A stretch of 64,000 nucleotides of DNA from Leisingera sp. NJS204 (GTDB lineage Bacteria > Pseudomonadota > Alphaproteobacteria > Rhodobacterales > Rhodobacteraceae). Of this stretch, positions 10,036-40,226 are shown piece by piece. The first letter of the stretch is position 1; the number at the start of each line of letters is the position of its first letter. A model generated the notes under the pieces. That model saw only the letters and a list, made by a program, of their open reading frames with translations. It was not told where the DNA came from and did not search any database. The stretch is taken from assembly GCF_004123675.1 (NCBI RefSeq), contig NZ_CP035417.1, positions 3,215,501 through 3,279,500 on the forward strand, written 5' to 3'. The position numbers were made by a program, and so were the translations under genes.

Positions 10036-10076
10036 CCCTCTCGTGACATCACTGCGTGATGCACTGCCGGGCAGCG
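10036..10076 (+). repeat. 41-bp double-hairpin element, copy A
   Basis: The element runs from CCCTCTCG to TGCCGGGCAGCG with a central stem CATCAC / GTGATG around a TGC loop. It lies between the Ile and Asp codons of LLI-DSTGVKV in the IS5-family transposase. Deleting the 41 bases rejoins the frame exactly, with no target duplication. Confidence 0.85.
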
Positions 10077-10129
10077 GACAGCACCGGGGTCAAAGTTGAA
10101 GGTGAAGGCGAATGGCACGCCCGCAAACC

Positions 10130-10167
10130 CCCTCTCGCACATGCCATGCATGTGCTGCCGGGCAGCG
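10130..10167 (+). repeat. double-hairpin element, copy B (38-bp variant)
   Basis: Same ends (CCCTCTCG and TGCCGGGCAGCG) as copy A, but the middle is 18 instead of 21 bases, with a stem CACATG / CATGTG around a 5-base loop. It lies between Arg-Lys and Gly-Gly-Pro-Lys of the same transposase, 53 bases from copy A. The junction is one base off the expected frame. Confidence 0.8.
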
Positions 10168-10466
10168 GGCGGCCCCAAGCGCCGATCCTGCCTGACCTTC
10201 CCGACCAAATCCCCGACGAACAGGAGATCGGTAGCGTCACGGCAGATGGCGCCTGCGGTACGCGCAAGTGCCATGATGTGATCGCCGAGCGCGGCGCTGC
10301 TGCGGTCATTCCGCCCCGCAAGAACGCGAAGCCGTGGAAGACTATCACTGCCGGAGCCGGAGCTCGCAACGAAGCCCTGCGCGCATCCAAATACCTCGGC
10401 CGAGCCCTTTGGCGGCGATGGAGCGGATACCACCGCCGAAGCCGCGTCGAGATATGAGCCGGGCCA

Positions 10467-10491
10467 GAAAACGATCCGGGGAATCGTTTTC
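10467..10491 (+). repeat. second-family hairpin, copy F (GAAAACGA arms)
   Basis: A hairpin with 9-bp arms GAAAACGAT / ATCGTTTTC, followed by CCCGGCGA, interrupts the C-terminal part of the IS5-family transposase between RSRVE and MHCMKLL. The same kind of hairpin occurs at 22466 and 38035 in integrase genes. Confidence 0.75.
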
Positions 10492-10695
10492 CCGGCGATT
10501 GGATGCACTGCATGAAATTGTTGGGCCAGCGGCTCGTGGCACGGGACTTCGACCGTCAGGCCGCCGAGGTCCAGATCCGCATCGCCGTCCTGAACGGCTA
10601 CACCGCGCTCGGCATACCGGTCACGGAAGCTGCAGGATAAGTCCGTTCGGGGAAGGGGTAACCACGCACATCACACAATTTGTGCAACAGAGCCC

Positions 10696-10810
10696 CTGAT
10701 GGATCAACTACGAGATAAAGCCCATTGCCATCACCGTGACGCCCTGGACCAAGTGTTCGGACCAAGTTCTTGGTGAGCTTTCCAGAGGTACAAGCCATCG
10801 AAAGCACCAC
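10696..10810 (-). pseudogene. N-terminal fragment of a second P4-type integrase
   Basis: The minus strand reads SGKLTKNLVRTLGPGRHGDGNGLYLVVDPSGA, the N-terminal arm-binding (DUF4102) segment of P4-type integrases and similar to the intact integrase at 11115. It breaks off exactly at the terminal repeat of the IS5-family element, so that IS inserted into it and the rest has been lost. Confidence 0.65.
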
Positions 10811-10944
10811 ATTTTATACCACGATGTGAACAGAAGCCGATCAAATCGAAGAAAAACGAAAAAAGCAACGACCGCAAATCACTACGCTCGTCCAGGGACT
10901 TACAGTCGTAAATCGCCGCCCATTGCATATCAATGAAATTGGTA

Positions 10945-10960
10945 GGTGGCGGAGACGAAG
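10945..10960. repeat. attL: left attachment-site repeat of the tRNA-Ser island
   Basis: GGTGGCGGAGACGAAG is identical to 21339-21354, which covers the 3' end of the tRNA-Ser gene (CCA, discriminator and acceptor strand). This is the expected duplicated core after integration of an island into a tRNA gene. The bases beyond the repeat differ on both sides. Confidence 0.82.
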
Positions 10961-11087
10961 TCCGTATGATTGCGGTTTGCCTCGGTTCGCCGGTGTCTCC
11001 ACGCATTCTCTAAACGTAAACAAAAACAATAAGATAAATTCACACGCCGCTCTTGCAGTTCGTAGGTGTTCACCCTAAATCGGTTTC

Positions 11088-11113
11088 AAGTGTGGGAACA
11101 TATGTGGGAACGA
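11088..11113 (+). repeat. paired TGTGGGAAC motifs, left end of island
   Basis: AAGTGTGGGAACA followed by TATGTGGGAACGA gives two TGTGGGAAC copies 13 bases apart. The same pair recurs at 21261-21287 near the right end in the same orientation. Candidate integrase arm-type sites; function inferred. Confidence 0.5.
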
Positions 11114-11114
11114 T

Positions 11115-12290
11115 ATGGCATTGAGCGCGCGCAAAGTGGAAACGGCTGGCCCCGGACGGCATGGTGATGGGCGCGGCCTGTTTCTCTATGTCAAAGACTC
11201 TGGCGCGCGGTCTTGGGTGCTGCGGTATCAAGTGATGGGCAAGCGGCACGATCTGGGGCTTGGGGCCTATCCCGAGGTATCGCTGGCCATGGCGCGCGAC
11301 GGGGCGTTGCAAGCAAGGCGCATGATCCAAGAGGGCGAAGACCCGATTGCCAAGAAACGGCAAGCCCAACCCAAGACCTTCAAGGATGCCGCACTCGAAC
11401 TGATCGAAAGCAAACGCCCCGGCTGGAAGAACGCCAAACACGCGGCGCAATGGACCTCGACACTTGAGGCCTACGTGTTCCCCGGCCTTGGTCGGATGCA
11501 GGTGGCGCGTATCGAAACGGCGGACGTGATGGGCGTTCTCAAACCTATCTGGACCGCCAAGCCAGAAACCGCCAACCGGGTGCGTCAGCGGATTGAGGCC
11601 GTATTGGACTACGCCTCTGCGCTGGGCATTCGCACCGGCGACAACCCCGCGCGTTGGCGTGGGCATCTTGACCACCTGCTGCCCAAGCCGACCAAGGTGA
11701 AGGCGGTAAAACACCACCCCGCCTTGCCCCATGCCAAGATTGCCGAGTTCATGGAAGACCTGTCTGGGCGCGCGGGCGTTGCGGCGCGGGCGCTGGGCTT
11801 CACGATCCTGACGGCGGCACGTTCCGGCGAGACACGCGGCGCGACTTGGGCCGAGATTGATCTGAACGCGAAACTCTGGACGGTCCCGGCGGAAAGGATG
11901 AAGGCGGGCAAGGAACACCGCGTTCCCCTGACGCCGGAGGCAATCGCCTGCCTTGGTCCCAAGCGGGACGACGCGGCGCTGATCTTTGGAAGCGAAAGCA
12001 AACCGGGCAAGCCGATCTCTGATATGAGCATGACCGCCGTGCTGCGCCGAATGGGGCGCGACGCGATCACCGTGCATGGCTTCCGCTCGACCTTCCGCGA
12101 TTGGGCTGGCGAGACAACGGGCTTCCCGCGTGAGGTGATCGAGGCGGCGCTGGCGCATGGAATAAAGGACAAGGCCGAAGCGGCCTATGCCCGGTCTGAC
12201 CTCTTCGACAAACGCCGCGATCTTATGACGGCATGGTCTTCAACTGCCACCCGCCGCGATCTGGGAGCGAACGTGGTTGCACTTCCCTGA
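11115..12290 (+). CDS. P4-type tyrosine integrase
   Basis: Site-specific recombinase of 391 residues. The N-terminal DUF4102-type arm-binding domain (KVETAGPGRHGDGRGLFLYVKDSGARSW) is followed by a SAM-like core domain and a catalytic domain with Arg236 (AARSGE), His321 and Arg324 (HGFR) and nucleophile Tyr358 (AAYARSD). All key residues are present, so it is probably active. It lies just inside the left attachment repeat, reading inward. The start overlaps the second TGTGGGAAC motif region; no clear ribosome-binding site is visible. Confidence 0.92.
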   Translation: MALSARKVETAGPGRHGDGRGLFLYVKDSGARSWVLRYQVMGKRHDLGLGAYPEVSLAMARDGALQARRMIQEGEDPIAKKRQAQPKTFKDAALELIESKRPGWKNAKHAAQWTSTLEAYVFPGLGRMQVARIETADVMGVLKPIWTAKPETANRVRQRIEAVLDYASALGIRTGDNPARWRGHLDHLLPKPTKVKAVKHHPALPHAKIAEFMEDLSGRAGVAARALGFTILTAARSGETRGATWAEIDLNAKLWTVPAERMKAGKEHRVPLTPEAIACLGPKRDDAALIFGSESKPGKPISDMSMTAVLRRMGRDAITVHGFRSTFRDWAGETTGFPREVIEAALAHGIKDKAEAAYARSDLFDKRRDLMTAWSSTATRRDLGANVVALP

Positions 12291-12343
12291 CCGTTTCTAT
12301 TCTATCGCGGTAAAGTTGAATTTTTAGGTACGAGCATCACGAG

Positions 12344-15300
12344 ATGAAGATTGGTGAGATTCTAGACGGCTTCCGGGCCGCGTCGAGAAGTGAACGAGAA
12401 AAAGGTGATTACTTTGAGGACCTTGTTCGGCTCTTTTTAAAAAACGACAACACTCAAAAGCAATACTATTCAGAGGTTTGGCGGTTTTCCGACTGGGCCA
12501 GCCAAAACGGATGGAAGGGCAACGACACGGGGATCGACCTCGTTGCAGAACTATCAGACGGTTCTGGCTTTGCAGCTATTCAATGTAAGTTCTATGCACC
12601 AAATCACACAATCCAAAAACCCGATATTGATAGCTTCATCTCGGCGGCATCCAATGACACTTTTGCCCGCCTTGTAATCGTTGACACAACACTCAAGGAT
12701 TTTGGCAAGAACGCAAACGATACGCTCAAAAATCTATCAAAGGATTGGAACCGCATCGGGATAAGCGATTTGGAAGCAAGCCCGATTGATTGGGCGCAAT
12801 TCTTTAGAACTGGCAACATCTCGACCGGCCCCAAGAAAGAACTGCGAGAGCACCAACAAGAAGCGCTGGAAGCCGTCCAGAGCGGTCTTGAGGTGGCGGA
12901 CCGTGGCAAGCTGATTATGGCGTGCGGCACGGGCAAAACTTTCACGGGACTAAGAATTGCAGAGACGCTTGCAGGTCGTGGCAAGCTGGTCTTGTTCATG
13001 GTTCCGTCGCTTGCCCTCATGGCTCAGACCGTGACCGAATGGAAGAATGATTGCCAAACAGACTTCACCGCTTTCTCTGCATGTTCTGATGCGAAGGTCG
13101 GGCAACGTAAAGACGCTGATAGTCTGGACCTGAACATTCACGACCTAGCGTTTCCCGCGACGACAGATGCAGCGAAACTTGCCAGCCAAGTGGCGAGCGC
13201 ACCGAGTGAGCGCATGACTGTGGTATTCTCTACCTACCATTCAATTGACGTTCTGACCCGCGCCCAGCGCGACCACGGCCTTCCAGAATTTGATCTGGTG
13301 ATCTGCGATGAAGCCCACCGGACTACGGGTGTTACGCTCAAGGATGAAGATGAAAGCACATTTGTGCGTATTCACGACAACGAGTTTGTGAAGGCAAACA
13401 AGCGCCTCTACATGACTGCGACGCCTCGCGTATTTGGTGATGGGGCGAAGCGCAAAGCGGATGATCATGATGCTGAATTGGCATCTATGGACGACCCCAA
13501 GAAGTTCGGCGAAGACCTGTTTCACCGTGGCTTTGGCTGGGCGGTTCAGAGCAATCTTTTGACCGACTACAAAGTTGTGGTTTTGGCGGTGGATGAGGGA
13601 CTTATCTCAGACACAATCCAAAACCGCCTCAAGGAAGGCTCCGAACTCAAACTCGACGACGCCACCAAGATTATCGGGTGCTACAAGGCGCTCACCAAGG
13701 AGAACTTGGCGGCAGACTTGGAGTTTGACCCGAAGCCGATGAAACGCGCTTTGGTGTTTTGCCAGACAATCGCTAAGTCCAAAACCATTGAAAGCGAGTT
13801 CTCCAAGGTTATCGATGAATACACTGGCAGCGACCTGATCGAAGATCCGCACCATCTTGCCACCAGCGTCCGCCACATTGACGGCAGCGACAACGCCAGC
13901 AAACGCAAAGAAATGCTGGACTGGCTCAAGGCCGATACCCCCGAAGGCACAAGCCGCTTGCTCACCAATGCAAAGGTATTGTCCGAGGGTGTAGATGTGC
14001 CTGCCCTTGATGCGATCATGTTCATGCACCCGCGCAAAAGCCAGATCGACGTGGTGCAATCCGTTGGGCGTGTAATGCGACGCGCGGAAGGTAAAAAGAT
14101 GGGGTATGTGATCCTGCCCATCGCTATACCGGCCAACACAACGCCCGAGCAGGCACTAAACGACAACGAGCGCTACAAGGTTGTTTGGCAAATCCTGAAC
14201 GCCCTCAGGGCGCATGATGAGCGTCTGGACGCGCGCATCAATCAAGCCAAGCTGGGCGAGGATATTAGCGACAAGGTGGACTTTGTACGTATCTCCTCAG
14301 AGACCGAGTTGAAAGAACTCACCGCCGTTGTTGATGACATTAAAACCACCAAAACCAAGGCGGCAAGTGCTAAGGCCAATATCGGTGATGACGTCGCCAC
14401 ACGCTCAACACTCCCCCCTGAAGTTCAGGGCGAATTTGCCTTCGACGAATTCACCCGCGCCATCATGGCCAAGATCGTCGAGAAATGCGGCACCCGCGAA
14501 TATTGGGATACCTGGGCCAAGGACATCGCCAAGATCGCCCAGACCCACATCACCCGCATCACCACCATCGTCGCCAAGGACGGGCCGGAACGCACCGCCT
14601 TCATGGCCTTCCTTGAGGAACTGCAAGACGACCTGAACCCCGAGATTTCCGAGGCAGAGGCCATCGAGATGCTGGCCCAGCACCTCATCACCAAGCCAGT
14701 CTTTGACGCACTATTCAAAGGCCACCGCTTCACCAAGGAAAACCCCGTCTCCCGCGCGATGGAGATCGTGCTGAGCCAGTTGCACGAACACAATCTGGAG
14801 AAAGAATCCGACAGCCTCGCCAAGTTCTACGCCAGCGTGGAACGCCGCGCGGCGGACGTGAAGACCGCGCAGGGCCGCCAGACTCTGATCACCGAGCTTT
14901 ACGACAAATTCTTCCGCACCGCCTTCCCCGTGCTCACTGCGCGGCTTGGCATCGTCTATACGCCGGTCGAGGTGGTGGATTTCATCATCCACTCGGTCAA
15001 TGACGTACTGAAATCGCAGTTCGGCCAAACTCTAGGCTCCAAGGGCGTGCATATCCTTGACCCCTTCACCGGCACGGGCACCTTCATCACCCGCCTGCTG
15101 CAATCCGGCCTGATCGCGCAGGACGAGTTGGAGCACAAATACAAGCAGGAGATTCACGCCAACGAGATCGTGCTTCTGGCCTACTATATTGCCGCCGTGA
15201 ACATCGAGACGGTCTATCACGAACTGGCCTATGGCTCTCTGTCTAGCAACGCACCCTATGACCCGTTCGAGGGCATCCTGTTAACCGACACCTTCCAGAT

Positions 15301-17224
15301 GTACGAGCAGGAACGCGACATGGTGGCGAACCTTCTGCCCGACAACTCGGAGCGCCGAACCAAGCAAAAGGCCTTGGATATCCGCGTGATCATCGGCAAC
15401 CCGCCTTATTCGGCGGGGCAGAAAAGCGAAAACGACAACGCCAAGAATATTGAATATCCACAACTAGATGGTCGTATCCGCGACACCTATGCCGCTGCAT
15501 CGAATGCGACGCTACAGAAAGCACTTTATGACAGCTATATCCGCGCTTTCCGTTGGGCGAGCGAGCGCATTGGAGATGCGGGCGTCATGGCATATGTGAC
15601 TAATGCGGGCTGGATTGACGGAAACGCTGCTGATGGGATGCGCAAATGCCTCGCCGAAGAGTTCAGCGACCTCTACATCTTCCATTTGCGTGGCAATCAA
15701 CGCACTTCTGGTGAGCTGTCACGAAAGGAAGGCGGAAAGATTTTCGGTTCGGGCAGTCGTGCGCCGATTGCAATTTCGGTGCTCGTAAAGAACCCCGATG
15801 CCACCACACACGGGCGCATCCATTTCCACGACATTGGCGACTATCTCGATCAGAAGCAGAAGCTTTCTATCATTCGGAACTTCGGCTCGGTTGATGGTGT
15901 TTCGAAAGCCAACGGCTGGAAAAACATCACGCCGGATGAAAACAATGACTGGCTGGATCAGGTGGATCGCAGCTTTGACAAGTTTCCGGTCCTCGGCGCA
16001 AAGCGTGGTGATGAACAAGGCCTTTTCGAGAACTATTCACAAGGCATCCTGAGTGCGCGAGACGCGTGGGCATATAACTACAGTCGCTCCAAGCTTTCTG
16101 AAAACATGCGACGCATGGTGGACTTCTACAATTCTGAGATCGCACGATATGAAGCTGCCGGACAGCCTGTCGATGTAAACAAATTTGTCAGCGATGATGG
16201 TCGCAAGATCAGCTGGACGGGAAATCTCAAGGCAGACTTAAGACGATCTAAAGCTCTTGAATTTGAAGCAGATGGCATTCGACCAGCAATCTATCGTCCG
16301 TTCCAGAGTCAGTGGCAATATTTTGATCGTCGCCTGAACGAACGTGTCTACCAAATGCCGCGAATCTTCCCAGATGTTGAGTCCCAGAACCTTGTTATCC
16401 ACCTAACCGGCATCGGTGTGAAAACCGGTTTCTCGGCGCTGTTGGTGAATAAGCTGCCAAATTTTCACCATCATGACACTGGCCAGTGTTTCCCTCTCTA
16501 CCTTTTTGAGGAAACCCAACCCGATGACGGTCTCTTCGCTGCAGCGGGAAATCAGGCCAGCGGCCTCACCCGCCGCGACGCAATCACTGACGAAGGCCTC
16601 GCGCAATTCCAAGCCGCCTATCCGGGGGAAGAGATCAGCAAGGAAGACCTGTTCTTTTACATCTACGGCCTGCTGCATTCGCCGGACTACCGCGAGCGAT
16701 TCAAAAACAACCTCGCCAAACAGCTCCCCCGCATCCCGGCGGTCAAAAGCTTTGCCGATTTCGCCGCCTTCCGCGACGCAGGCCGCGCGCTGGGTGATCT
16801 GCATGTGAACTTTGAAAGCGTCGATCCTTATATGGTCACGTTCAAGGAAGGCGACCACGCCCTGATCAACGAAGCACAAGCCGACCCGGTGGCCTTCTAT
16901 CGCGTGACCAAAATGAAGCACGGCGGCACCGCAAAAGCCCGCGACAAGTGCACCGTGATCTACAATGGCAACATCACCATGCAGAATATTCCCTTGGAGG
17001 CCTATGATTACGTGGTGAACGGGAAACCCGCCCTCGACTGGGTCATGGACCGCCAAGTGGTCAAACAGGACAAGGCTAGCGGAATCATCAACGATGCCAA
17101 TGACTACGCCAATGAAACAGTCGGCGATCCGCGCTATCCGTTGGAATTGTTCCAACGGGTAATCACGGTGAGTTTGGAGACGATGAAGATCGTAGACGCC
17201 TTACCCGCGCTGGATATCGACTAA
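12344..17224 (+). CDS. single-chain Type ISP restriction-modification enzyme (nuclease-translocase-methyltransferase)
   Basis: A 1626-residue enzyme with the layout of LlaGI/LlaBIII. It has an N-terminal Mrr-like nuclease (Asp65 in GIDLVAEL, Gln80-x-Lys82 in AIQCK); an SF2 translocase with Walker A GTGKT 195-199, DEAH 322-325, TATP 358-361 and motif VI QSVGRVMRR 572-580; a coupling region; and an N6-adenine methyltransferase with DPFTGTG 906-912 and NPPY 1019-1022. The remaining about 350 residues should include the target-recognition domain. Such enzymes methylate one strand of an asymmetric site and cut between convergent translocating copies. All motifs are intact. No separate specificity or methylase gene is nearby, as expected. 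It is the main island cargo and probably a phage defence. Confidence 0.93.
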   Translation: MKIGEILDGFRAASRSEREKGDYFEDLVRLFLKNDNTQKQYYSEVWRFSDWASQNGWKGNDTGIDLVAELSDGSGFAAIQCKFYAPNHTIQKPDIDSFISAASNDTFARLVIVDTTLKDFGKNANDTLKNLSKDWNRIGISDLEASPIDWAQFFRTGNISTGPKKELREHQQEALEAVQSGLEVADRGKLIMACGTGKTFTGLRIAETLAGRGKLVLFMVPSLALMAQTVTEWKNDCQTDFTAFSACSDAKVGQRKDADSLDLNIHDLAFPATTDAAKLASQVASAPSERMTVVFSTYHSIDVLTRAQRDHGLPEFDLVICDEAHRTTGVTLKDEDESTFVRIHDNEFVKANKRLYMTATPRVFGDGAKRKADDHDAELASMDDPKKFGEDLFHRGFGWAVQSNLLTDYKVVVLAVDEGLISDTIQNRLKEGSELKLDDATKIIGCYKALTKENLAADLEFDPKPMKRALVFCQTIAKSKTIESEFSKVIDEYTGSDLIEDPHHLATSVRHIDGSDNASKRKEMLDWLKADTPEGTSRLLTNAKVLSEGVDVPALDAIMFMHPRKSQIDVVQSVGRVMRRAEGKKMGYVILPIAIPANTTPEQALNDNERYKVVWQILNALRAHDERLDARINQAKLGEDISDKVDFVRISSETELKELTAVVDDIKTTKTKAASAKANIGDDVATRSTLPPEVQGEFAFDEFTRAIMAKIVEKCGTREYWDTWAKDIAKIAQTHITRITTIVAKDGPERTAFMAFLEELQDDLNPEISEAEAIEMLAQHLITKPVFDALFKGHRFTKENPVSRAMEIVLSQLHEHNLEKESDSLAKFYASVERRAADVKTAQGRQTLITELYDKFFRTAFPVLTARLGIVYTPVEVVDFIIHSVNDVLKSQFGQTLGSKGVHILDPFTGTGTFITRLLQSGLIAQDELEHKYKQEIHANEIVLLAYYIAAVNIETVYHELAYGSLSSNAPYDPFEGILLTDTFQMYEQERDMVANLLPDNSERRTKQKALDIRVIIGNPPYSAGQKSENDNAKNIEYPQLDGRIRDTYAAASNATLQKALYDSYIRAFRWASERIGDAGVMAYVTNAGWIDGNAADGMRKCLAEEFSDLYIFHLRGNQRTSGELSRKEGGKIFGSGSRAPIAISVLVKNPDATTHGRIHFHDIGDYLDQKQKLSIIRNFGSVDGVSKANGWKNITPDENNDWLDQVDRSFDKFPVLGAKRGDEQGLFENYSQGILSARDAWAYNYSRSKLSENMRRMVDFYNSEIARYEAAGQPVDVNKFVSDDGRKISWTGNLKADLRRSKALEFEADGIRPAIYRPFQSQWQYFDRRLNERVYQMPRIFPDVESQNLVIHLTGIGVKTGFSALLVNKLPNFHHHDTGQCFPLYLFEETQPDDGLFAAAGNQASGLTRRDAITDEGLAQFQAAYPGEEISKEDLFFYIYGLLHSPDYRERFKNNLAKQLPRIPAVKSFADFAAFRDAGRALGDLHVNFESVDPYMVTFKEGDHALINEAQADPVAFYRVTKMKHGGTAKARDKCTVIYNGNITMQNIPLEAYDYVVNGKPALDWVMDRQVVKQDKASGIINDANDYANETVGDPRYPLELFQRVITVSLETMKIVDALPALDID

Positions 17225-17315
17225 GTTGCCAGCGGAAATCTGAACGCCAACGCCTTGTCAGGAACCCCCGTGAACACCATATTGTGTATGACTTTTATTT
17301 TTAGGCACAGAATAT

Positions 17316-18536
17316 ATGGCATCATACAGTGGTTTTCTACGCAAAGCGCCCAGCGCGCGGTTAAAGACTTTTCTTGAGGTAACGGGCGTCGAAATGCCCG
17401 TGGATTTCGACTGGAACAGCGCTGGGCGAGGCAAGGCCTTTGTCGCTGATCTTAACGCGGTGATTGATGAGTTGCCCGACCGGCTGCAAGACCGCCTCAA
17501 GGCCGAACTGGATCATCTGGCCAGCCTGTCCAATGACGCGGTGATGATCAGCGCCGAACAGGTTTGCCCGGTGATGGGAATTGACCTCGAAGGCTCTGAG
17601 GGCGTGCAAGACGTGCTCTTGATGCTGGCGCTGGATCATCCCCAAGCCTTTGAGCGGGTTGCGGTGCAGGCCTCATTAAACCGGCGCACAGGCGGCAGGA
17701 ACTGGTCGGCTTTCCAGTTTGACGACGATGGAACGGCTTGGGCCTTGGAGGATGACGCGGCGCGCGCGGCTTTTGTGGGCGAGGCGATAGAGATTTTAAA
17801 CCTGCCAGCACACCGCAAACGCGAGGCGGATTGGTAGCAGGCGGTTCGTATTCACCCCATCACGGGTGAAGAAACCGAGATTGTTCAGGCCACAATCTAT
17901 GTGGAAGACCGCGCCGCAAGTGAACTGACCTTTGGCGCTTCCGAAGGCTTGGAGCGGCAAGTGTTTCAGCGGGTCTTAGAGGTGGGTATTGCCTGCAACC
18001 CTGCCGAACGCATTGTCGAGATTTGCGCCGCAGGTGGAAAAAAGGTCCGTGATGAATATGCACAGGCCTTTTCAAAGCACTTCGCGCCGGGGTCTGACCC
18101 GCCGGTCGAAGCCCCGCGCCGAGATGTGTTGCTTCACACGTTGCGATCCCAACCTGCGTTTCCGGTTGAACCGGCGGATGGTTTCGAACGCGTCGAGGTG
18201 TCGTCACTTGACTTTTTCTCAACCGGCGGCGGCTTTACCCGCTTTGAGAAACGCGGTGATGGCGAAACGATCTATCAATTCCTCGACCGACGCTTTGGGC
18301 AGGTTTCTCCGCTCAAGGCCGGTGGATGGCAGATCGTCTCTGCCACGCTGCGGATTGTCATAGCGGCGCAAGATGGCAAGCGCCGCCGCACGCTGACCGT
18401 GACCTTGCGCAGTCCGAATACCACGACGATCCCCAACAAGACGGAAGCAGACCGCCAATTGGTGCTCAAGCTGTTGGAGCGGTGGAACCTGATTGCGCCC
18501 CCGTCGCCTGAAATTGATGTGATCGAGGACGACTGA
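17316..18536 (+). pseudogene. unrecognised 406-codon gene interrupted by an in-frame amber codon
   Basis: Two open stretches in the same frame (17316-17834 and from 17838 onward) are separated only by TAG at 17835-17837. Codons directly after TAG continue with coding-like sequence (QAVRIHPITGEETEIVQATIYVEDRAASELTF), so the original product was about 406 residues. The N-terminal half is charged and helical (FLEVTGVEMPVDFDWNSAGRG, then DALNAVIDELPDRLQDRL-like segments). The C-terminal half has LDFFSTGGGFTRFEKRGDGETIYQFLDRRFG and a lysine/arginine-rich strand. I recognise no family. It follows the Type ISP gene by 91 bases and abuts the next gene, suggesting one cargo operon. A sequencing error at the TAG is possible. 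Confidence 0.65.
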
Positions 18537-19637: not shown

Positions 19638-19643
19638 GACCAG

Positions 19644-21338: not shown

Positions 21339-21354
21339 GGTGGCGGAGACGAAG
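21339..21354. repeat. attR: right attachment-site repeat (in tRNA-Ser 3' end)
   Basis: GGTGGCGGAGACGAAG, identical to 10945-10960. It includes the terminal CCA-encoding bases and part of the acceptor stem of tRNA-Ser, so the tRNA remains whole at this end of the island. Confidence 0.82.
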
Positions 21355-21430
21355 GGATTCGAACCCTCGAGACCCTTCCGGGCCTACTCCCTTAGCAGGG
21401 GAGCGCCTTCGACCACTCGGCCACGTCTCC
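21341..21430 (-). tRNA. tRNA-Ser(GCU)
   Basis: Minus-strand class II tRNA of 90 bases including encoded CCA. The acceptor begins GGAGACG, the anticodon loop is CUGCUAA (GCU, reading AGC/AGU), a long variable arm follows, and the T-arm holds GGTTCGAATCC. It is the integration target of the island to its left. Confidence 0.95.
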
Positions 21431-22960: not shown

Positions 22961-23001
22961 CCCTCTCGGCAGCATCCTGAGGATGCGCCTGCCGGGCAGC
23001 G
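22961..23001 (+). repeat. 41-bp double-hairpin element, copy C
   Basis: Ends CCCTCTCG and TGCCGGGCAGCG with a central stem GCATCC / GGATGC around TGA. It lies between the Thr and Asp codons of EANT-DVRVIQVLLGHAK in the integrase. Removing exactly 41 bases restores the frame across the catalytic region. Confidence 0.87.
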
Positions 23002-31828: not shown

Positions 31829-32149
31829 ATGAGCTACATCGCCATGAACCGCTTCAAGATCCGCCCGGGCCGCGAAGCCGATTTTGAGACCATCTGGAAA
31901 CAGCGGGAAAGCCGCTTGAAAGAGCTGAAGGGGTTCCGCGAATTCCGTCTGCTGAAAGGCCCGGAAGGCAAGGATCACCTTCTCTATTCCAGCCATGTGA
32001 TCTGGGACAGCCGCGAAGATTTTGAGGCCTGGACCAAATCCGAACAGTTCCGCGCTGCGCACCGCGATGCAGGCAAGCGCGAAGGCGAAAGCCCGATCCT
32101 GGGGCATCCGCAGTTCGAAGGCTTCGAAACCGTCCTGCATGAGGCCTGA
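31829..32149 (+). CDS. antibiotic-biosynthesis-monooxygenase-domain protein (IsdG/HmoA-like)
   Basis: Small ABM ferredoxin-like protein of 106 residues: MSYIAMNRFKIRPGREADFETIWKQRESRLKELKGFREFRLLKG, then SSHVIWDSREDFEAWTKSEQFRAAH. Proteins of this shape include heme-degrading monooxygenases; the candidate heme ligand would be a C-terminal His such as in FRAAHRD. Substrate is not proven. AAGGAGG precedes the start at 31829. It is followed by a bidirectional terminator shared with trpB. Confidence 0.8.
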   Translation: MSYIAMNRFKIRPGREADFETIWKQRESRLKELKGFREFRLLKGPEGKDHLLYSSHVIWDSREDFEAWTKSEQFRAAHRDAGKREGESPILGHPQFEGFETVLHEA

Positions 32150-32158
32150 GCTAAACTG

Positions 32159-32183
32159 AAAAAGGCGCCCTGCGGGGCGCCTT
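32159..32183. terminator. bidirectional terminator between the ABM gene and trpB
   Basis: A GGCGCCC stem with a short loop has an A-run on the left and TTCTGTGTT on the right. It serves trpB best, whose minus-strand transcript ends in a U-run here. Confidence 0.8.
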
Positions 32184-32205
32184 CTGTGTTACCGGGATGT
32201 TGCCG

Positions 32206-33465
32206 TTACTCCTCGAAGCTGCGGCCTTCTTCGGTGTCGGACATATCGAAGCCCAGATGCTTGGCAACGGTGAACACGTCCTTGTCGCCGCGGCCGCACA
32301 TGTTCATCACAATGATGTGGTCCGACGGCAGCTTGGGCGCGATCTTCATCACATGGGCCAGCGCGTGGCTGGGCTCCAGCGCCGGTATGATGCCTTCGGT
32401 GCGGCAGCTGACCAGGAAGGCTTCCAGCGCTTCCTTGTCGGTGATCGAGACATATTCAGCGCGCCCCGATTCATGCAGCCAGGAATGTTCGGGGCCGATG
32501 CCCGGATAATCCAGACCGGCGGAAATCGAATAACCTTCCTGAATTTGCCCGTCTTCATCCTGCAGCAGATAGGTGCGGTTGCCATGCAGCACGCCGGGGC
32601 GTCCGCCAGTCAGCGATGCGCAATGCTGGATCCGGTCATCCACACCTTTGCCGCCGGCCTCAACCCCGATGATTTTCACCGAGGGGTCATCAAGGAACGG
32701 GTGGAACAGGCCGATGGCGTTAGAGCCGCCGCCGATCGCGGCGATCACAGTGTCCGGCAGGCGGCCTTCGCCTTCCTGCTCGGCCAGCTGCCAGCGGACC
32801 TCTTTGCCGATGATCGACTGGAAATCGCGCACCATCGCCGGATACGGGTGCGGACCTGCGGCGGTGCCGATGCAATAGAAGGTATCGCGCACATTGGTCA
32901 CCCAGTCGCGCAGCGCGTCATTCATCGCGTCCTTCAGGGTGCCGCGGCCCGAGGTGACCGGGATCACTTCAGCACCCAAAAGGCGCATGCGGAACACGTT
33001 CGGTGCCTGGCGCTTCACATCATGGGCGCCCATGTAGACGATGCACTTAAGGCCGAACTTGGCGCAGACAGTGGCGGTGGCCACCCCGTGCTGGCCTGCA
33101 CCTGTCTCGGCGATGATCCGGGTCTTGCCCATACGGCGTGCCAGCAGGATCTGGCCCAGCACGTTGTTCACCTTATGCGCACCGGTGTGGTTCAGCTCGT
33201 CACGCTTCATATAGATCTTGGCGCCGCCCAATTCGGCGCTCAGACGCTCGGCGTGGTAGAGCGGGCTGGGACGGCCGACGTAATGCGTCCACAGATCCCT
33301 CATCTCCGCCCAAAAGGCAGGGTCGTCCTTGGCCCGGTTGTATTCTGCCTCAAGGCTCAGGATCAGCGGCATCAGGGTTTCCGAGACAAACCGCCCGCCA
33401 AAGATGCCAAAACGCCCCTGTTCATCCGGACCGTTCATGAAGCTGTTGAAAAGATCGTCGGCCAT
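32206..33465 (-). CDS. trpB: tryptophan synthase beta subunit
   Basis: PLP enzyme joining indole and serine to tryptophan, 419 residues. The Schiff-base lysine lies in [11 protein letters not shown], the phosphate-binding loop is AAIGGGSNA, and [13 protein letters not shown] and [13 protein letters not shown] are intact. The start MADDLFNSF at 33465 has a GAGGGAAGAA site; the frame open to 33546 adds unrelated residues. It lies 457 bases downstream of trpF on the same strand. Confidence 0.96.
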
Positions 33466-33922
33466 GGTTCTTCCCTCTCTCGCAGCGCCCGCAATGACTA
33501 TAGCGCGCCGCTGCCATGGTAAAGAGGGGTTGAAGCAAGCAGGCACATCCGGCGAAGGCCGATGCCCTGCCGGAATGGCTGTCTGCTGCTGCTAGCTGCC
33601 GGCCCTGAAAATCCAGAGGATACGCCCGCGTTCTAAACGCTGTCTCGCACGACCCAAATGAATGAGGCCCTGTTCCTAGGTGCCGGAAGTGTCAGGACCA
33701 GCGTGACCGCAATCAGGGGAGAGCATGGCAGAACGGGTTTAAGTCGGCGTGAGGGCCGCGTACGCCGGCTGCGCAACACCTGGATGGCATACCAGGCAGG
33801 CACGGTCGCGAAGTGAGTATTTTTGGAAAGATGAAGACATGGGACGATGCAGCTTCATCTTTCTCCAAATACTCAAATCCCGCGGGCTGCCGCATTTGCA
33901 TAGGCTGCTGCTGTGCGGGGCT
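33466..33922. other. 457-bp trpF-trpB intergenic region with an inverted repeat
   Basis: No coding sequence is recognisable. Its notable content is a long imperfect palindrome at 33815-33874. The rest probably carries the trpB promoter near 33480-33530. Confidence 0.6.
33815..33874. repeat. long imperfect extragenic palindrome
   Basis: A 22-base left arm (33815-33836, beginning GAGTATTT and ending GATGAAG) is answered by a near-complementary right arm at 33853-33874 (CTTCATC to ATACTC) across a 16-base spacer. From memory, this GAGTATTTTTGG-type motif recurs between genes in Roseobacter-group genomes, so it is likely a REP-like repeat rather than a gene-specific signal. Confidence 0.7.
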
Positions 33923-34576
33923 TCAGCCGCGGGCAGCGTGCGCCGCCCGGGTGAAAACTTCGATTAGCGCGGCGTCTTTCTGTCCCGGCGCGTTTTCAAC
34001 ACCGGAGGAGACATCGACCTGACGCGCACCGGTCATACGGATCGCCTCGGCGACGTTGTCCGGGGTCAGGCCGCCGGCCAGCATCCAGGGTTTCTGCCAG
34101 TACTTGCGGCCCGCCAGCAGCCGCCAGTCAAAGGCCAGACCATTGCCACCGGGCAGCGTGGCTTCCTTGGGTGGTTTGGCGTCGATCAAGAGCTGATCGG
34201 CCACCTGTTCATAAAGCGCAATCTGCGGCAGGTCGGCGGCATCGGCGATGCCCACTGCCTTCATCACCGGCAGGCCGTAGCGGGCGCGCACCTCGGCCAC
34301 CCTCTGCGGGCTTTCTTTGCCATGGAGCTGCAACATATCCAGCGGCACCGCGGCTGTGATCGCATCAAGCTCTGCATCTGCGGCGTTAACTGTCAGCGCC
34401 ACCTTGCACAGACCGGCGGGGGCCTCGACAGCCAAAGCTGCGGCCTGTTCGATGCTGACGTGGCGCGGGGATTTGGGAAAAAACACAAAACCGGCATAAG
34501 CCGCCCCTGCCCCGGCAACGGCCGCAACATCCTGCAGCGCGCTGAGGCCGCAGATCTTGACCCGGATCTCTGTCAT
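33923..34576 (-). CDS. trpF: phosphoribosylanthranilate isomerase
   Basis: TIM-barrel isomerase of 217 residues, third step of tryptophan synthesis from chorismate. The general base Cys is in KICGL (residue 9) and the general acid Asp in LLIDAK. The substrate loop GGNGLAFDW and phosphate-binding [10 protein letters not shown] and [11 protein letters not shown] are complete. It starts 7 bases after the lapA stop, continuing the ihfB-lapA transcript. Confidence 0.95.
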
Positions 34577-34583
34577 GGCGGTG

Positions 34584-34934
34584 TCAGCCTGCGTCTTCCA
34601 AAAGCGCCAGAACTTCGTCTTTGCCTTCGTTCTTCTGCTTTTTCAGCTTGCTCACTTCGCGGTTCAGCCTGCGCGCCTCGCGCGTCTTCTGCGCGGCTTC
34701 GCTGCGGTGCTTATGCTCGCGCAGCCATTCCCACAGGAAGCCGATCACCAGCCCGGCGCCAACCCCGCCCAGCACCACCGCAAACAGCGGCAGCGCAATG
34801 GTGAAGTTGAAACCAAAAAGCTCGCCCAGTGCCGAGGGCATCAGTTTCAGCTCAACAAAAGACCGGTTGGCAAGGGCAACCGACACCAGCACAATGGCCA
34901 GAGACCCCAGAACCGCGTAGCGAATGTAACGCAT
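34584..34934 (-). CDS. LapA-domain (DUF1049) membrane protein
   Basis: A 116-residue inner-membrane protein with two hydrophobic segments (about 5-22 and 44-67) and a charged coiled-coil tail ([30 protein letters not shown]). This matches the LapA/LapB-type lipopolysaccharide assembly protein family, although the E. coli role need not carry over. It is coupled to ihfB by an ATGA overlap. Confidence 0.85.
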
Positions 34935-35218
34935 CAGGCTTTCCCGTTCAGGCGGTCCCTCAAGAGCTTACCAGTCTTGAAGAACGGCACATGTTTTTCA
35001 TCGACATGGACCGTTTCACCGGTGCGGGGATTGCGGCCGGTCCGCGAGTCCCGCTTTTTGACCGAAAAGGCGCCAAAGCCGCGCAGCTCAACCCGGTCGC
35101 CGCGGGACATCGCATCGGTCACTTCCTCGAACACCGTGTTCACGATCCTCTCCACATCCCGCTGATACAGGTGCGGGTTTTCGTCTGCAATCATCTGAAT
35201 CAACTCAGAGCGGATCAT
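34934..35218 (-). CDS. ihfB: integration host factor subunit beta
   Basis: A 94-residue DNA-bending protein of the HU/IHF family, partner of IHF alpha. The sequence has [33 protein letters not shown], the flexible-arm motif GRNPRTGE with the intercalating Pro, and [12 protein letters not shown]. The start at 35218 has an AGGAAA site; an open frame to 35575 is spurious. Upstream, where rpsA often stands, there is instead about 13 kb of accessory DNA. Confidence 0.95.
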
Positions 35219-35838
35219 GTTCAATTTCCTCCCAGGCTGCCGGTATGTTCTGGCTATTATTTTGAGAGTATAGGAAAAATTCTTGCGTGGGGGAACAAAA
35301 TGCCGCCGGTCCGGCAGCTTAATCGGCGGGAGTTCACCGGGTTTTCCGCCTCCAGGCTGCCATTTCGGGGCTGCAAGCTGCCGCCGCAGTGCAGCAATCC
35401 CCGTTGCCAGGCGCGCTGCGGCGACTTGATTCGGAGCGGCAAACAGCCCCCGGATCACACAGGCCCCCCGCCCCCCACTGCGGTGCGCCGGCCACAGCGG
35501 CGTGATTTTTCCCTGCCGCCAAATCTGCTGAGACCGATTGATTCCGCCGCCAAGGACGGCCCAAGCCGAAACCATTCACTGAACCGGCAGCGCAGGATGC
35601 GGCATGCAGCCGCCGCATACGCCGCAAATGAAACTTTATTTCCACAAGGTAAAATAATTTGTTGTAAAGCGCCCTGGATCCGCCATCCTTTCCGTGAACC
35701 AGGCGTGTCAGAGGACCTGACCCGCCCGGTGCGTTTCGAACCGGCATGCTCGGCCCATTGGCGGCAGCATAGGCCGGCCTGTCAAAGCTGGTGGCAAACA
35801 ACCGGCGGGAAGACAAACCAACTTGGAGAAAACTGGAA
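35219..35838. other. 620-bp intergenic region, no gene seen
   Basis: No coding sequence is convincing. An AT-richer stretch (35625-35665) may hold a promoter for the Amt-like gene, and the minus-strand side near 35220-35280 should carry the ihfB promoter. Confidence 0.5.
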
Positions 35839-37212
35839 ATGCCATTGGACGTGAGCACGATACACGCTCAGCAAGTTACGCTGAATTCACTGGTGCAGAA
35901 TATTCTGTACGCTTCTGGGATCGTCGGGGCCATTCTGGTCGTCGTCGGCCTGCTGCTGATCGACGCAGGCACTGCCCGGCGCAGGAATCTGTTCAACTCG
36001 ACGATTGAAAAGACACTGGGATTCTTCCTGGGGTTTGCGACCTACTATATCATCGGTTTTGGCCTGTGGGCCGGGCAGTATTACATCATGGAAGGCGCGA
36101 CCATGATGGACTCCATCAAGGATTGGTGGCTGGGCGGCGCCCTGACCAATGCGATGGCGCATCATACGGATCCCGGGACCTTTCCGGGGCTGAACACCTT
36201 CCAGATCTTCATCTTTTTCCTGGCGGTGTTTGCCGGCATCATCAACATTCTGCTTCATTTCGCGGTGTCGGAACGGATGAAGGCCTCGGCCTATTTCATC
36301 ACCTGCATTGTGGCCACGGTGGTGTCCTCAGCCCTCAGCTGGGCGACCTGGGGGTCGGTCGGGCCGCTGACCAATGCGGGCTTCCACGACTTCTTTGGTG
36401 TGGGTTTCGTGTATCTGTTCCCGGCCGGAATGGCGCTGGTATTCACCCCCAAGCTGGGCGCGCGCCCCGGCATGATGGCGCCGCACCCGCGGATCTCGGC
36501 CTATCTGGCACCGAGCATCGGGTTGTGCGCTCCGGGCCTTCTGCTGATCTTTGCCGGCCTGCCGATGGTGATCCTGTCCTGCCTGTTCTTCTTTGATCCG
36601 GAAGCGCTGGCAGTCAGCATCACCATGGCCGACACCAGCGTCGGCATCGCAATCAACAATTACGCGTTGGTCTGGGCCGGCGGCGCAGTGACCGGCTTGC
36701 TGATCGCCTATGCTACCGGCAAATACGCCTATACCCTGCTGGGTCCGCTGGCGGGCTATGTCGCCGGCGCGTCCGGGTTCGACGTCTACCTGCCCTGGCA
36801 GGCGTTCATTGTCGGGCTTGTGGCGCCCTTTGCGGCCTATGCGGTTTATGAGTTCACGCTGAAGCGCGGCATCGACGAGCACAAGCTGTTCCCGCTGTTC
36901 CTGGGCTGCGGCACCCTGGGCATGGTGATGCTGGGCCTGTTCAAGGCCGGCACCCCGCGCGGCGGTTACTTCGGGGTAGAGGAAGGCGCCTATGCGTTCC
37001 AGCACGGGGAAATCTCGCTGGTGATGCAGCTGGCGGGCACGGCTGTCTGCATCGGCACCGGTGTTGTCACTGCGCTGGTTCTGTCTTTCATCCTGGAGCG
37101 GACCGTGGGAATGCGGGTGCCGGAGGACGACCAGATCGACGGGCTGGACGGCAAGAACTGGGACCTGGAGCCGGATGTGGTCACCCACGCGGACAGCCTG
37201 CAGCGCGCCTGA
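35839..37212 (+). CDS. divergent ammonium-transporter (Amt)-family membrane protein
   Basis: Polytopic inner-membrane protein of 457 residues with about 11 hydrophobic helices. Amt-like landmarks are IDAGTARRRN after the first helix, the NAGFHDFFGVGFVYLFPAGMALVF segment where AmtB has DFAGGxxVH, and GPLAGYVAGASGFDVYLPWQAFIVGLVA. The pore His of the first motif is replaced by Tyr (FVY), and the second pore-His region is not obvious, so substrate or mechanism may differ from AmtB. No glnK lies beside it. The start MPLDVST has TTGGAG about 12 bases upstream; an in-frame ATG at 35791 is less likely. Confidence 0.72.
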   Translation: MPLDVSTIHAQQVTLNSLVQNILYASGIVGAILVVVGLLLIDAGTARRRNLFNSTIEKTLGFFLGFATYYIIGFGLWAGQYYIMEGATMMDSIKDWWLGGALTNAMAHHTDPGTFPGLNTFQIFIFFLAVFAGIINILLHFAVSERMKASAYFITCIVATVVSSALSWATWGSVGPLTNAGFHDFFGVGFVYLFPAGMALVFTPKLGARPGMMAPHPRISAYLAPSIGLCAPGLLLIFAGLPMVILSCLFFFDPEALAVSITMADTSVGIAINNYALVWAGGAVTGLLIAYATGKYAYTLLGPLAGYVAGASGFDVYLPWQAFIVGLVAPFAAYAVYEFTLKRGIDEHKLFPLFLGCGTLGMVMLGLFKAGTPRGGYFGVEEGAYAFQHGEISLVMQLAGTAVCIGTGVVTALVLSFILERTVGMRVPEDDQIDGLDGKNWDLEPDVVTHADSLQRA

Positions 37213-37233
37213 TCGCGCCGGGAGCGAGAGAGT

Positions 37234-37259
37234 GGCCCTGGCGGGAGCCGGGGCCTTTT
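37234..37259 (+). terminator. terminator of the Amt-like gene
   Basis: GGCCCTGGC and GCCGGGGCC form a 9-bp stem (one wobble) with a GGGA loop, followed by TTTT, 21 bases after the stop. Confidence 0.75.
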
Positions 37260-37325
37260 ACGTTCGCGCCCCTGATACGGCGGGAATCGGCTATAGTCAC
37301 TCTCATCAACAAAGAGGAGACCGCC

Positions 37326-37523
37326 ATGCTGTACCCGCTTGCCTCGCTTGAGGCCGACAAGCTGGACGCGATCAAGAGCCTGGAAAAGGACATCGGCAGC
37401 CCTGTGGTGGCGCTGGCCGGTGTCGAGGCAAACACCGCCTCCCTGCCCGAAGACCAGCTGAAGAAACTGCAGGAGCTGGAAGCGGAACTGGGCGTCGTGC
37501 TGGTGGCCGTTAGACCGAACTAA
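37326..37523 (+). CDS. small conserved-looking hypothetical protein
   Basis: A 65-residue acidic protein (MLYPLASLEADKLDAIKSLEKDIGSPVVALAGVEANTASLPEDQLKKLQELEAELGVVLVAV). AGAGGAGA lies 6 bases upstream of ATG. It has one predicted amphipathic helix pair and no membrane segment. Codon use fits the host. Function unknown. Confidence 0.6.
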   Translation: MLYPLASLEADKLDAIKSLEKDIGSPVVALAGVEANTASLPEDQLKKLQELEAELGVVLVAVRPN

Positions 37524-37752
37524 CGGGCGCAGCGGACAGGCACGGCACTGGCCCGGCACTGGCTCGGACGCGGCTGAAACGCCGGCCGCTGCGGTAGCTG
37601 CGGTGGCTGCGGTGCGGCACAATGAGGAAACCACTCTCGCGGTATTGGCGCTTGGGGCAGGCGTTTTGCATTGATCTGACCGCTGTGCATTTGCGAATGG
37701 GCGCGTCTGTCTGACGATTGGGACCTACTCAAATTGATGACAGGAAGTTCTC

Positions 37753-38390
37753 GTGACCGGTCAATATTTTCCCAAACTGCGCCAGCGTTTTGCCGAAGAC
37801 ATGCAAATCAAGGGGCTGCAGCCGAAGACGCAAACGATGCATTTGCGGGCGATGCGCGGCCTCGCCCGGTTTCCGGGGCATGCGCCGAATAGCGCGACGC
37901 CGGAGGAGTTGCGGGCATTTCAGCTTGATATGAAGGAACGGGGCGTTGGTGCGCCAACCTTCAATAACCGGTTGACGGTGCTGAGCTTCTTCTATGCAAC
38001 CAGGTGTCTGCGCCCGGAGAGTGAAGGCGGAAAGGAAAACGATCCTGTCACTCGTTTTCCCGCTGAACGCGGCGCATGCGTTATCAGCGGGCAGCCAAGA
38101 AGATCCCCGTGGCGCTGAGCGCCGAGGACGTGTCACGCCTTCTGGAAACCGCGCCCGGACCTGGATTGCGATGCCGCGCTGCCTTTAGCGTGGCTTTCGG
38201 CGTGGCGCACGGCTTCGCCGGGGTCAGGAAGAAGGTGCCACCCCACAGGCTGAGGCACAGCTTTGCAACCCATCTGCCGGGGGCCGGGACTGATATCCGG
38301 GTCATTCAGGTTTTGCCCGGGCACGCCAAGCCGGAGACCACCACCAAAGGTGGCGGCCAACACCTTTCAGGATGTAGCCAGCCCCCTTGA
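37753..38390 (+). pseudogene. IS91-associated tyrosine recombinase, degraded
   Basis: Reads LRQRFAEDMQIKGLQPKTQTMHLRAMRGLARFPGHAPNSATPEELRAFQLDMKERGV to FFYATRCLRPE. A hairpin insert near 38035 follows, then [43 protein letters not shown] deletion removes the catalytic Arg region. The text resumes at [37 protein letters not shown]. The nucleophilic Tyr block is lost: the downstream frame reads [16 protein letters not shown]. Catalytically dead. Confidence 0.78.
38035..38059 (+). repeat. second-family hairpin, copy H
   Basis: Arms GAAAACGA / TCGTTTTC around a 9-base loop, followed by CCCGCTGAACGCGGCGC and an ATG codon. It occupies the same place in the integrase as copy G at 22466, with similar flanking bases (GAGAGTGA about 20 bases upstream in both). 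Confidence 0.75.
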
Positions 38391-38399
38391 TCTGCTCAT

Positions 38400-39395
38400 G
38401 AGACGGGAGGCCAATCCCGGTCAGGCAGGGCTCAGATGCCCCGTCCCGGACTGGAGGTCGCGGATATCTTCCGCGCCCGCGGTGCTGCCTGCCGTCATGA
38501 CCATGCCGGACACCTGAACCTGCCACAGTTGAAGGTAATGTCCGCGATTGAGAGCTGCCGGACCGCAGCGCTCGGCGGGCATGCTGCCCGTCGAATACTT
38601 CCACGCGGTCTTTACGCTGCCAGCCCGGATCGCGGGTATTGCGTTTCAGAACAAGGCGGCGGCCTATGGCTTGCTGGTCAAGGTGTCGTCCCAAACGCTC
38701 CTGACCATCGCAGCCGGTCCAAAACACCCGGGTGTGAAGACCGGCATGACATCGGTTCTGCAGACGTGGGGTTCGGCAATGACCCATCACCCGCACGTGC
38801 ATGTTTTCGTGCCGGGAGGCGGGCTGCCGCCAGATGGCACCCGCTGGAGCGCCTGCCGCCCAGGCGGTTTTCCTGCCGGTGAAGGTCCTGTCGAGGCTGT
38901 TTCGGCGCTCTGGCGGGATGAGCAAACCCGGATACCTTCGCTGCCCATCCCGCGCCGCTGCGCAAAACCAACCGGGCCGTTTATGCCAAACCGCCCTTCG
39001 GCGGGCCGGATGCCGTGCTTGCCTATGTGAGCCGGTATACCCACCGGGGGGCTATCTCAAACCATGAATGGGGGACGAAGGTCATGCGCCTGCCGGCAGA
39101 TGAGTTCATCCGCCGCTTGCTCAACCCTGTCCTGCCCACCGGCTTCTACTGCATCAGACACGCTGGCTTCCTCGCCAATGGTATCCGGCGCGACAGGACG
39201 GGACGGATCAGGAGCTTGCTCGGCAAAGGGCAAAACCCGGATCAGGCAGCCGAAAACGATCAGCGCACCGGCACGGATGAAGAGGACCAGCTTCGAGCTG
39301 GCCCGGAATGCGGCAGCGCGATGCGTGTCATCGAGACCTTCCTGCGCGGCCAAACTCCAAAATACCGCGCACGCCCAAGGGAGGATGCAGCATGA
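38400..39395 (+). pseudogene. IS91-family HUH (Y2) transposase, degraded
   Basis: Recognisable blocks in changing frames are LPVEYFHAVFTLPARIAGIAFQNKAAAYGLLVKVSSQTLLTIA, TSVLQTWGSAMTHHPHVHVFVPGGG (the HPHVH metal-binding HUH motif), PDGTRWSACRPGGF, LPVKVLSRLFRR, YAKPPFGGPDAVLAYVSRYTHRGAISNHEWG, VMRLPADEFIRRLLNPVLPTGFYCIRHAGFLANG and a C-terminal MRVIETF. The N-terminal zinc-binding domain is missing. Several frameshifts make it non-functional. Confidence 0.8.
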
Positions 39396-39782
39396 TCAAA
39401 CCGTCACACCCGGCCCCGCCATCCGGCGGCACTGGACCAGTCAGTGCGGACAGCTTCCAGGCAACCGTGCCAAAACTGGACTGCGGAAACCGCACGCCCA
39501 GCACTACCCGTCCCCAAACGAGCTACCGTTCCGCGCAGAGATTGCAGCAGCGGTACCGACCCCCCCCCCATAACACCGAAATCCAACCACGCTTTCCTCC
39601 TTGTCAGACTTGCCGCCGCTGCAGCTCACGCTGACAGCAGCCACAAACCCTAGGGTCAGGATTCATAACCAATAGATGACGGTCGCGGCCAGAGCGATGG
39701 CTGAGAGGAAGACCTTGGGACAGCGATCATAGCGTGTCGCCACACGCCGCCAGTCTTTTAGCCTGCCGAACATGATCTCAAT

Positions 39783-39823
39783 CACTGCCCGGCAGTGCAT
39801 TGCGCAGCAATGTCACGAGAGGG
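39783..39823 (-). repeat. 41-bp double-hairpin element, copy D
   Basis: On the minus strand it runs from CCCTCTCG to TGCCGGGCAGTG with stem CATTGC / GCAATG around TGC. It lies between RRNR and IEIMFGRLKDWRR of the IS5-family transposase. Excision of 41 bases restores the frame. Confidence 0.86.
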
Positions 39824-40185
39824 GCGGTTGCGTCGTTTGTATCGGCGCTTGTCGTATTTGACCGGGGTCTTGCGTTGCTTTCTGCCGGGGATGCAGGCGC
39901 GTATCCCTTTGTCTTTCAACGCGTCCCTGAACCAGTCGGCGTCATAGCCACGATCCCCGTGCAACCAGTCGACCTTTGGCAGGCTACTGAGCAGTGCCCG
40001 CGCGCCGATGTAGCCGCTGACTTGGCCGGCGGTGACGAACAGGTTGAGCGGCCGCCCTTGGCTATCGCAGATGGCGTGCAGTTTGGTGTTCATGCCGCCC
40101 TTGGTCCGACCGATCAGGCGTCCACGCCCCCCTTTTTCGCGGCCATGCTGGTCGCAGTGCGGTGTGCCTTCAAATAGGTCGCGTC

Positions 40186-40226
40186 CGCTGCCCGGCAGGG
40201 CATTGCGCAGCAATGTCCCGAAAGGG
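40186..40226 (-). repeat. 41-bp double-hairpin element, copy E
   Basis: On the minus strand it runs from CCCTTTCG to TGCCGGGCAGCG with stem CATTGC / GCAATG around TGC. It lies between the Ile and Asp codons of KTVMI-DATYLKAHRT. Excision of 41 bases restores the frame. The junction ATC/GAC equals that of copy A in a different transposase. Confidence 0.86.

Follow-up and report, generated by a model that had tools for sequence, protein, structure and literature searches.

Very small hairpin elements with fixed ends and a free stem, inserted mainly in transposase and integrase genes of Leisingera sp. NJS204 and other Rhodobacteraceae

Small mobile hairpins are known in several lineages, and how DNA of such tiny size moves is an old open question. 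The question arises again in a stretch of 64,000 nucleotides from Leisingera sp. NJS204 (Rhodobacteraceae; NZ_CP035417.1, positions 3,215,501 to 3,279,500), hereafter the window, whose own numbering is used throughout. In this window, an initial annotation made from the sequence had noticed five copies of a short repeat with fixed ends and a variable, base-paired middle. All five are recovered by a pattern made of the ends, which finds no match in 100 dinucleotide shuffles. They belong to a family of elements, mostly 34–46 bp long, composed of CCCTYTCG, a hairpin of almost any sequence, and then TGCCGGGCAGYG. These elements are discrete insertions, absent from homologous sites and without target duplication, and they lie chiefly in transposase and integrase genes drawn from many families. 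It is probable, at roughly 70%, that they are non-autonomous mobile micro-elements inserting as DNA, whose moving form would be a folded single strand or else an RNA intermediate, aided by an enzyme acting in trans.

The first issue is whether the fold is truly conserved. Besides the 6-bp arms already described for the middles, three more pairs were found (columns 8-10 with 27-29), with one unpaired base between. Whether the arms would continue to change together in further copies was the critical point of the initial annotation, and to address it, every distinct 41-mer retrieved with the end pattern (56 in all, with no selection for a stem) entered a covariation count that was compared with 500 shuffles. 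Paired cells amounted to 95.4% versus a shuffled mean of 75.2, cells altered on both sides to 72 versus 14.4, and the covariation score to 0.495 versus 0.136; none of the shuffles equaled any of the three values. When the partners were slid by 1–3 columns, at most 50.2% were paired and the score did not exceed 0.121. Two-sided changes occurred at eight of the nine pairs. Moreover, 159 of 186 rows matching the pattern can fold into a stem that is 5 bp or longer, compared with about 32 when the middles are shuffled. Of the 186 rows, 36 were removed because the stem was shorter than 5 bp, because the end letters differed, or because of their length; the 150 kept copies, for which such a stem was thus a condition, contain 102 distinct middles. 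Because the stem sequence is nearly free and its arms covary, it is the hairpin that is kept, not its sequence.

Covariation of this kind may also have a purely mutational origin. Quasi-palindrome correction, an established process in which replication uses one arm as the template for the other, would keep stems perfect as well and has no need for the fold. However, such correction leaves the fixed ends and the spread of the elements unexplained, and stems of varied length work equally within the family; we regard it as an unlikely source of the pattern. As for the overall shape, the central stem of the proposed ‘double hairpin’ holds, whereas the second hairpin is uncertain, because the self-complementarity claimed for the right end (TGCC-G-GGCA) would require a one-base loop, the predicted structure is in most cases a single hairpin, and the invariant ends offer no covariation. 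For four of the five copies in the window, the RNA fold of lowest energy is predicted to pair the 5′ CCC with the GGG of TGCCGGGCAG, leaving a 4x4 internal loop, while the copy at 22961 takes another lowest-energy fold. This end pairing is uncertain, since both ends are invariant and energy is its sole basis.

That the elements are insertions is most directly seen in an IS5-family transposase gene on the minus strand (39663..40502, from ATG to TGA, delimited by eye). It holds two 41-bp copies, both on the minus strand and in sense, at 39783..39823, where CGC/ATT is split, and at 40186..40226, where ATC/GAC is split (VMI|DAT). With both copies excised, 771 of 771 bases align unbroken, at 89.3%, to an annotated IS5 family transposase (H72) on a plasmid of Paracoccus pantotrophus (NZ_CP058691.1), in which the sites are empty. 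A three-way alignment places 41 bp at ATC/GAC and at CGC/ATT with zero duplicated bases. In the Dinoroseobacter shibae homologue, the two copies are likewise absent, and instead one antisense element lies in the middle of the gene and another near its start.

The remaining three window copies lie in sense on the plus strand. An interrupted IS5-type transposase gene, aligned to relatives over 9817..10380 (plus strand, end approximate) and carrying Pfam DDE_Tnp_1_5 in the related L009, holds two of them. The first (10036..10076, 41 bp) splits ATC/GAC (LLI|DSTG); its excision gives ...CTGATC|GACAGC..., and homologues are empty at the same site. The second (10130..10167, 38 bp) was placed in the gene by eye and through L127, the empty relative of its counterpart in L009, whose junction is one base longer. 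The third (22961..23001, 41 bp) splits ACC/GAT (EANT|DVRVIQVLLGH) of a tyrosine recombinase gene, the frame of which matches Pfam Phage_integrase once the element is excised and has an empty relative, L184. All five copies are therefore situated inside transposase or integrase frames, and the two halves of each frame make up one gene.

Across the family, five of the kept copies were dropped for short flanks, and the remaining 145 fall into 97 site clusters in many contexts without long common flanks, which supports a dispersed family rather than a conserved part of one gene, the refuting case that the initial annotation had foreseen. For 89 of these 145 elements, a homologous stretch spans the site. 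The best relatives are gap-free near the junction in 51 cases; in 21, the interrupted copy is one base short and often lacks the C, while gaps of other kinds are seen in 17. The count of the leading C thus seems to vary by one. Target-site duplication, a criterion for miniature inverted-repeat transposable elements (MITEs), is absent at both IS5-family window sites and in the 51 gap-free relatives. At least one ‘empty’ match holds an element of its own (L017 for L059). Because element lengths leave a remainder of 2, 1, and 0 on division by three in 56, 29, and 12 of the 97 clusters, most elements break the reading frame.

Two patterns absent from the initial annotation, a preferred target and a bias in host genes, emerge from these clusters. 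The target resembles C^GATGG, with the six letters present at 74, 77, 60, 54, 60, and 47% of the sites. When frames across the excised junctions were compared with Pfam, a transposase, insertion sequence (IS), or integrase domain was found in 49 of the 97 clusters, including L170, where a second IstB stretch was placed by hand, and L171, with generic helix-turn-helix domains; another domain was found in five, none in 40, and three had no usable frame. Four of the five sites in ordinary genes are apparent chance matches of the pattern: L126 and L112 are non-alphaproteobacterial by title and L154 and L182 are weak folds, the fifth being RelE (L188). Among the 40 clusters with no domain, several are transposase-like by eye (uncounted) and others are intergenic. 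At 26 control sites, taken from the same loci but more than 1 kb from any element, an IS or transposition domain occurs in three (IstB, a weak IS110, and a weak TnsD) and an ordinary domain in 14, or 15 with a weak EF-hand. The difference between 49/97 and 3/26 is significant (Fisher p 0.0003), and also when the clusters are scanned at the flank width of the controls (35/75, p 0.002). Detection of host frames by codon usage was too weak and was replaced by Pfam: 14 of 93 sites were confident, and 6 of 11 one-strand sites were in frame after excision. As a separate observation, a 34-bp form is found at intergenic positions in several species, where six of nine 34-mers (L008, L019, L074, L131, L145, and L178) immediately precede an RTATTT-like motif; this form perhaps sits in a terminator-like repeat.

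Since exact removal of the element repairs many reading frames, it could be supposed that the ribosome skips the element or that it is excised from RNA in an intron-like manner, leaving the transposase functional, as in Magnusiomyces mitochondria. An IS3-type element of 1310 bp (L016) might appear to favor such bypass: its six copies over about 1310 bp, five of them 99.0–99.6% identical to the sixth, together with partial ones, all carry a frame-breaking 37-bp insertion in the transposase, all nine genome matches that span the site are interrupted, and no empty copy is found among them. So might the ratio of nonsynonymous to synonymous substitution (dN/dS), which is low (0.16) in interrupted IS5-type pairs. 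The ratio is, however, similarly low (0.14) in empty pairs and is explained by young insertions; as a test of function, for which 10 of the 50 rows were set aside because they contained a stop, it proved uninformative. In addition, orientation within the host is evenly divided, with 24 elements in sense and 23 in antisense among the 47 of 49 clear cases (L139 and L091 left out; a by-eye tally of 35:32 is superseded by this Pfam-only count), which excludes a general need for sense RNA. A second IS3-type element, which has one antisense and one sense insertion in each of four copies compared, is also multi-copy, with eight equal-score places in the genome, and the 21 junctions one base short likewise speak against precise skipping. 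Presumably, an interrupted IS is multiplied by transposase supplied in trans or by conversion, and bypass is therefore not needed. As a general mechanism, it appears highly improbable.

Conserved positions are occupied more than once. A tree of 50 related IS5-type sequences for the LLI|DSTG site, 20 interrupted and 30 empty, requires at least 15 changes, five of which are forced by well-supported branches; interrupted and empty rows are intermixed, and since 189 to 203 of 500 shuffles of the label reach a value as low, the label shows no clustering beyond that of the shuffles. The bootstrap of this tree is unsettled, the branches of three interrupted rows are long or unsure, and gains are not separated from losses. 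Elements at this site measure 34, 37, 39, 40, and 41 bp, and clearly different middles occur in 8 of 27 multi-member clusters. Independent insertion would be the simplest reading of this reuse, with precise loss or conversion also possible. It is conceivable, though we consider it the less likely course, that gene conversion between IS copies spread the elements and that the bias toward IS arose from survival, insertions elsewhere having been lost. Consistent with this are the coexistence of interrupted and empty IS5-type copies within one genome, the multi-copy state of several element-bearing IS families, and the intergenic copies, such as the 34-mers above. In contrast, the IS5-type copies that have the site in common are only about 70–85% alike to the query and hold elements of five lengths, which does not suit conversion; with respect to survival, ordinary-gene domains occur at 5 of 97 sites, mostly by apparent chance, against 14 of 26 controls, a difference that survival would have to account for in dispensable genes as well.

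The family is abundant in this genome. Exact ends are present in 39 copies, whereas the reversed pattern has no match, and a covariance model built from the 56 distinct 41-mers finds 87 places at an expectation value (E) of up to 10, 73 of them down to E 0.0504. The counts from the model are a lower bound, because 150 of 8565 first candidates were scored. On contig C1, 18 gaps are under 2 kb versus 1.8 expected, part of which is due to duplication of IS with two elements. Beyond this genome, the distribution is patchy within the bacterial family and almost nil elsewhere in the class: a loose pattern is present in 113 of 394 genomes of the family, with many single matches stemless and thus due to chance, whereas the reversed control is present in about eight, as read from the table. 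In a class-wide sample, 34 of 385 genomes match, and outside the family stems are seen by our own reading in G586, G671, and G508 only; several other such matches have one CCCTGTCGCCGGTGCTGTGGCG-like string in common. Among 84,980 species genomes, at least 119 stretches match, and of the 80 titles listed, the majority belong to Rhodobacterales or carry the name Rhodobacteraceae. Twelve viral contigs match the pattern, three of which were excluded because of an absent stem or length, and no match in the phage collection covers 80% of the query. In two viral contigs (L186 and L196), elements with different stems occupy one site in a phage DNA methyltransferase-like gene.

An attempt was made to find a long autonomous version by searching 3 kb upstream of each of 20 lone 3′ ends for exact CCCTYTCG. 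It occurs at one of the 20 (L218, 1016 bp away), compared with a chance expectation of about 1.8, and three of these lone ends turn out to be short copies that have degenerated; longer or changed versions could escape such a search.

These results are best accommodated by a non-autonomous mobile element with the following course. The moving form would be folded single-stranded DNA, or else an RNA intermediate, in which a stem of any sequence brings the fixed ends close to each other; a trans-acting enzyme may then read the paired ends, cut, and join them into C^GATGG, and insertion sequences would afterwards carry the element copies along. A folded single strand is the likely substrate because the pairing of the stem, not its sequence, is kept and unites the fixed end motifs. 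Several points weigh against this proposal. The conservation of structure is the only ground for the single-strand step, and arm copying in replication could give the same covariation. The left boundary is sometimes inexact, as 38 of 89 best relatives are gapped near the junction, 21 by one base beside the element. The relatives compared differ by about 10–30%, and no insertion was seen between near-identical host copies. No Pfam domain was found at 40 of the 97 clusters. Finally, no enzyme among the Y1, Y2, and reverse transcriptase families tracks the elements at the 0.05 level.

This last result stems from a comparison of 22 element-rich with 21 element-free genomes. Y2 transposases are found in 11 and 5 of them, respectively (p 0.12), and reverse transcriptases in 8 and 7, with none in this genome. 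Y1 transposases match in 6 versus 1 (p 0.09), and this slight excess, the presence of Y1 genes in this genome, and the asymmetric ends, hairpins, and lack of target duplication familiar from IS200/IS605 elements would all fit a REP-like (repetitive extragenic palindromic) or IS200/IS605-derived element moved by Y1. Yet Y1 is unmatched in 16 of the 22 element-rich genomes, the fixed ends lack a GTAG or CGTC tag, and the three local Y1 copies have other flanks, with an element beside one only; movement by Y1 hence seems rather improbable. The Y1 gene lying 141 bp from one element was considered as a partner and rejected, as the other two copies have no adjoining element, and no transposon ends matching those of the element were seen at any of the three. 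Fragments of a Y2 transposase (IS91-type), broken and with an internal stop, lie near the two minus-strand copies (38743-39185, plus strand; C1:3254243-3254685).

Do these elements belong to a described family? None with these ends was found in the open-licence literature, nor any description of this element family; the two end strings occur together in 1 of 5.39 million such papers, an unrelated one on neuroscience. MITEs and the palindromic elements derived from IS200/IS605 are non-autonomous mobile DNA; unlike in MITEs, the ends here are not mutual inverted repeats and no target is duplicated, and matching ends were not seen alongside the three Y1 genes of this genome. The cyanobacterial SDR elements, which Elhai et al. 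are said to have described in 2008, are reportedly very small, dispersed, hairpin-forming, and thought to be mobile by an unknown mobilizer, with compensatory changes in the stem. They are thus alike as small dispersed mobile hairpins and are set apart by another lineage and, apparently, by other ends; we know of no concentration of SDR in transposase genes. Fungal GC clusters and Byp elements are likewise tiny and intragenic, with a variable hairpin between fixed ends. That likeness of anatomy, pointed out in the initial annotation, stands, whereas bypass as a general mechanism does not, in view of the 24:23 orientation and the multiplied frame-broken IS. The Byp elements of Magnusiomyces mitochondria are tiny inserts that break the reading frames of core genes; the frame-breaking is similar here, but orientation is random, with no preference for sense, and the hosts are transposase rather than core genes.

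The initial annotation was also correct that fixed ends around a covarying core differ from the REP-type repeats compared. The REP, REPIN, and RAYT systems and the GTAG and CGTC repeats comprise palindromes of 20–40 bp, the CGTC repeats also having no dedicated transposase. CCCTYTCG and TGCCGGGCAGYG contain neither GTAG nor CGTC on either strand, and the elements here lie within transposase genes, whereas REP sequences are mainly between genes; no tie to RAYT is seen, nor does Y1 accompany the elements from genome to genome, as the above counts indicate. Rickettsia palindromic elements, which stand in frame within genes that are likely to work, are similar as palindromic repeats in reading frames and dissimilar in that most elements here break the frame. 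What distinguishes the present family as a variant of its own among small mobile hairpins is a free stem between fixed asymmetric ends, together with its C^GATGG target and its concentration in transposase genes.

Such a family offers several handles on the movement of tiny DNA: exact boundaries, a target logo, empty sites on plasmids of cultured strains, more than 100 natural structural variants, and the tie to transposase genes. If insertion sequences are indeed targeted, this would be parasitism, or defense, acting on bacterial transposable elements. Tentatively, one may go further and imagine a hyperparasite of insertion sequences, 34–46 bp long with two end motifs and any hairpin, which would home repeatedly to conserved transposase positions, for instance the ATC|GAC boundary found in LLI|DSTG and VMI|DAT, and disable the host element while spreading. 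Its movement would follow a structure-reading mechanism not yet described, and across the lineage it would put a brake on IS; we hold this to be possible, with the odds against it. The elements may also help to explain broken transposases skipped by gene lists, as most of 60 listed plasmid places have no listed gene under the match, in a collection that omits pseudogenes.

Within the window, no sixth copy appeared in the whole-genome covariance-model scan, which a very degenerate copy could escape. A solitary TGCCGGGCAGCG without a 5′ end (54083-54094, minus strand) is not among the elements found by this model. In the Rfam scan of the window, the elements match no described RNA family, and gathering scores are reached by two other features alone, both on the minus strand: a cobalamin riboswitch (47326-47534, 134.5 bits) and a tRNA-Ser with the anticodon gct (21341-21430).

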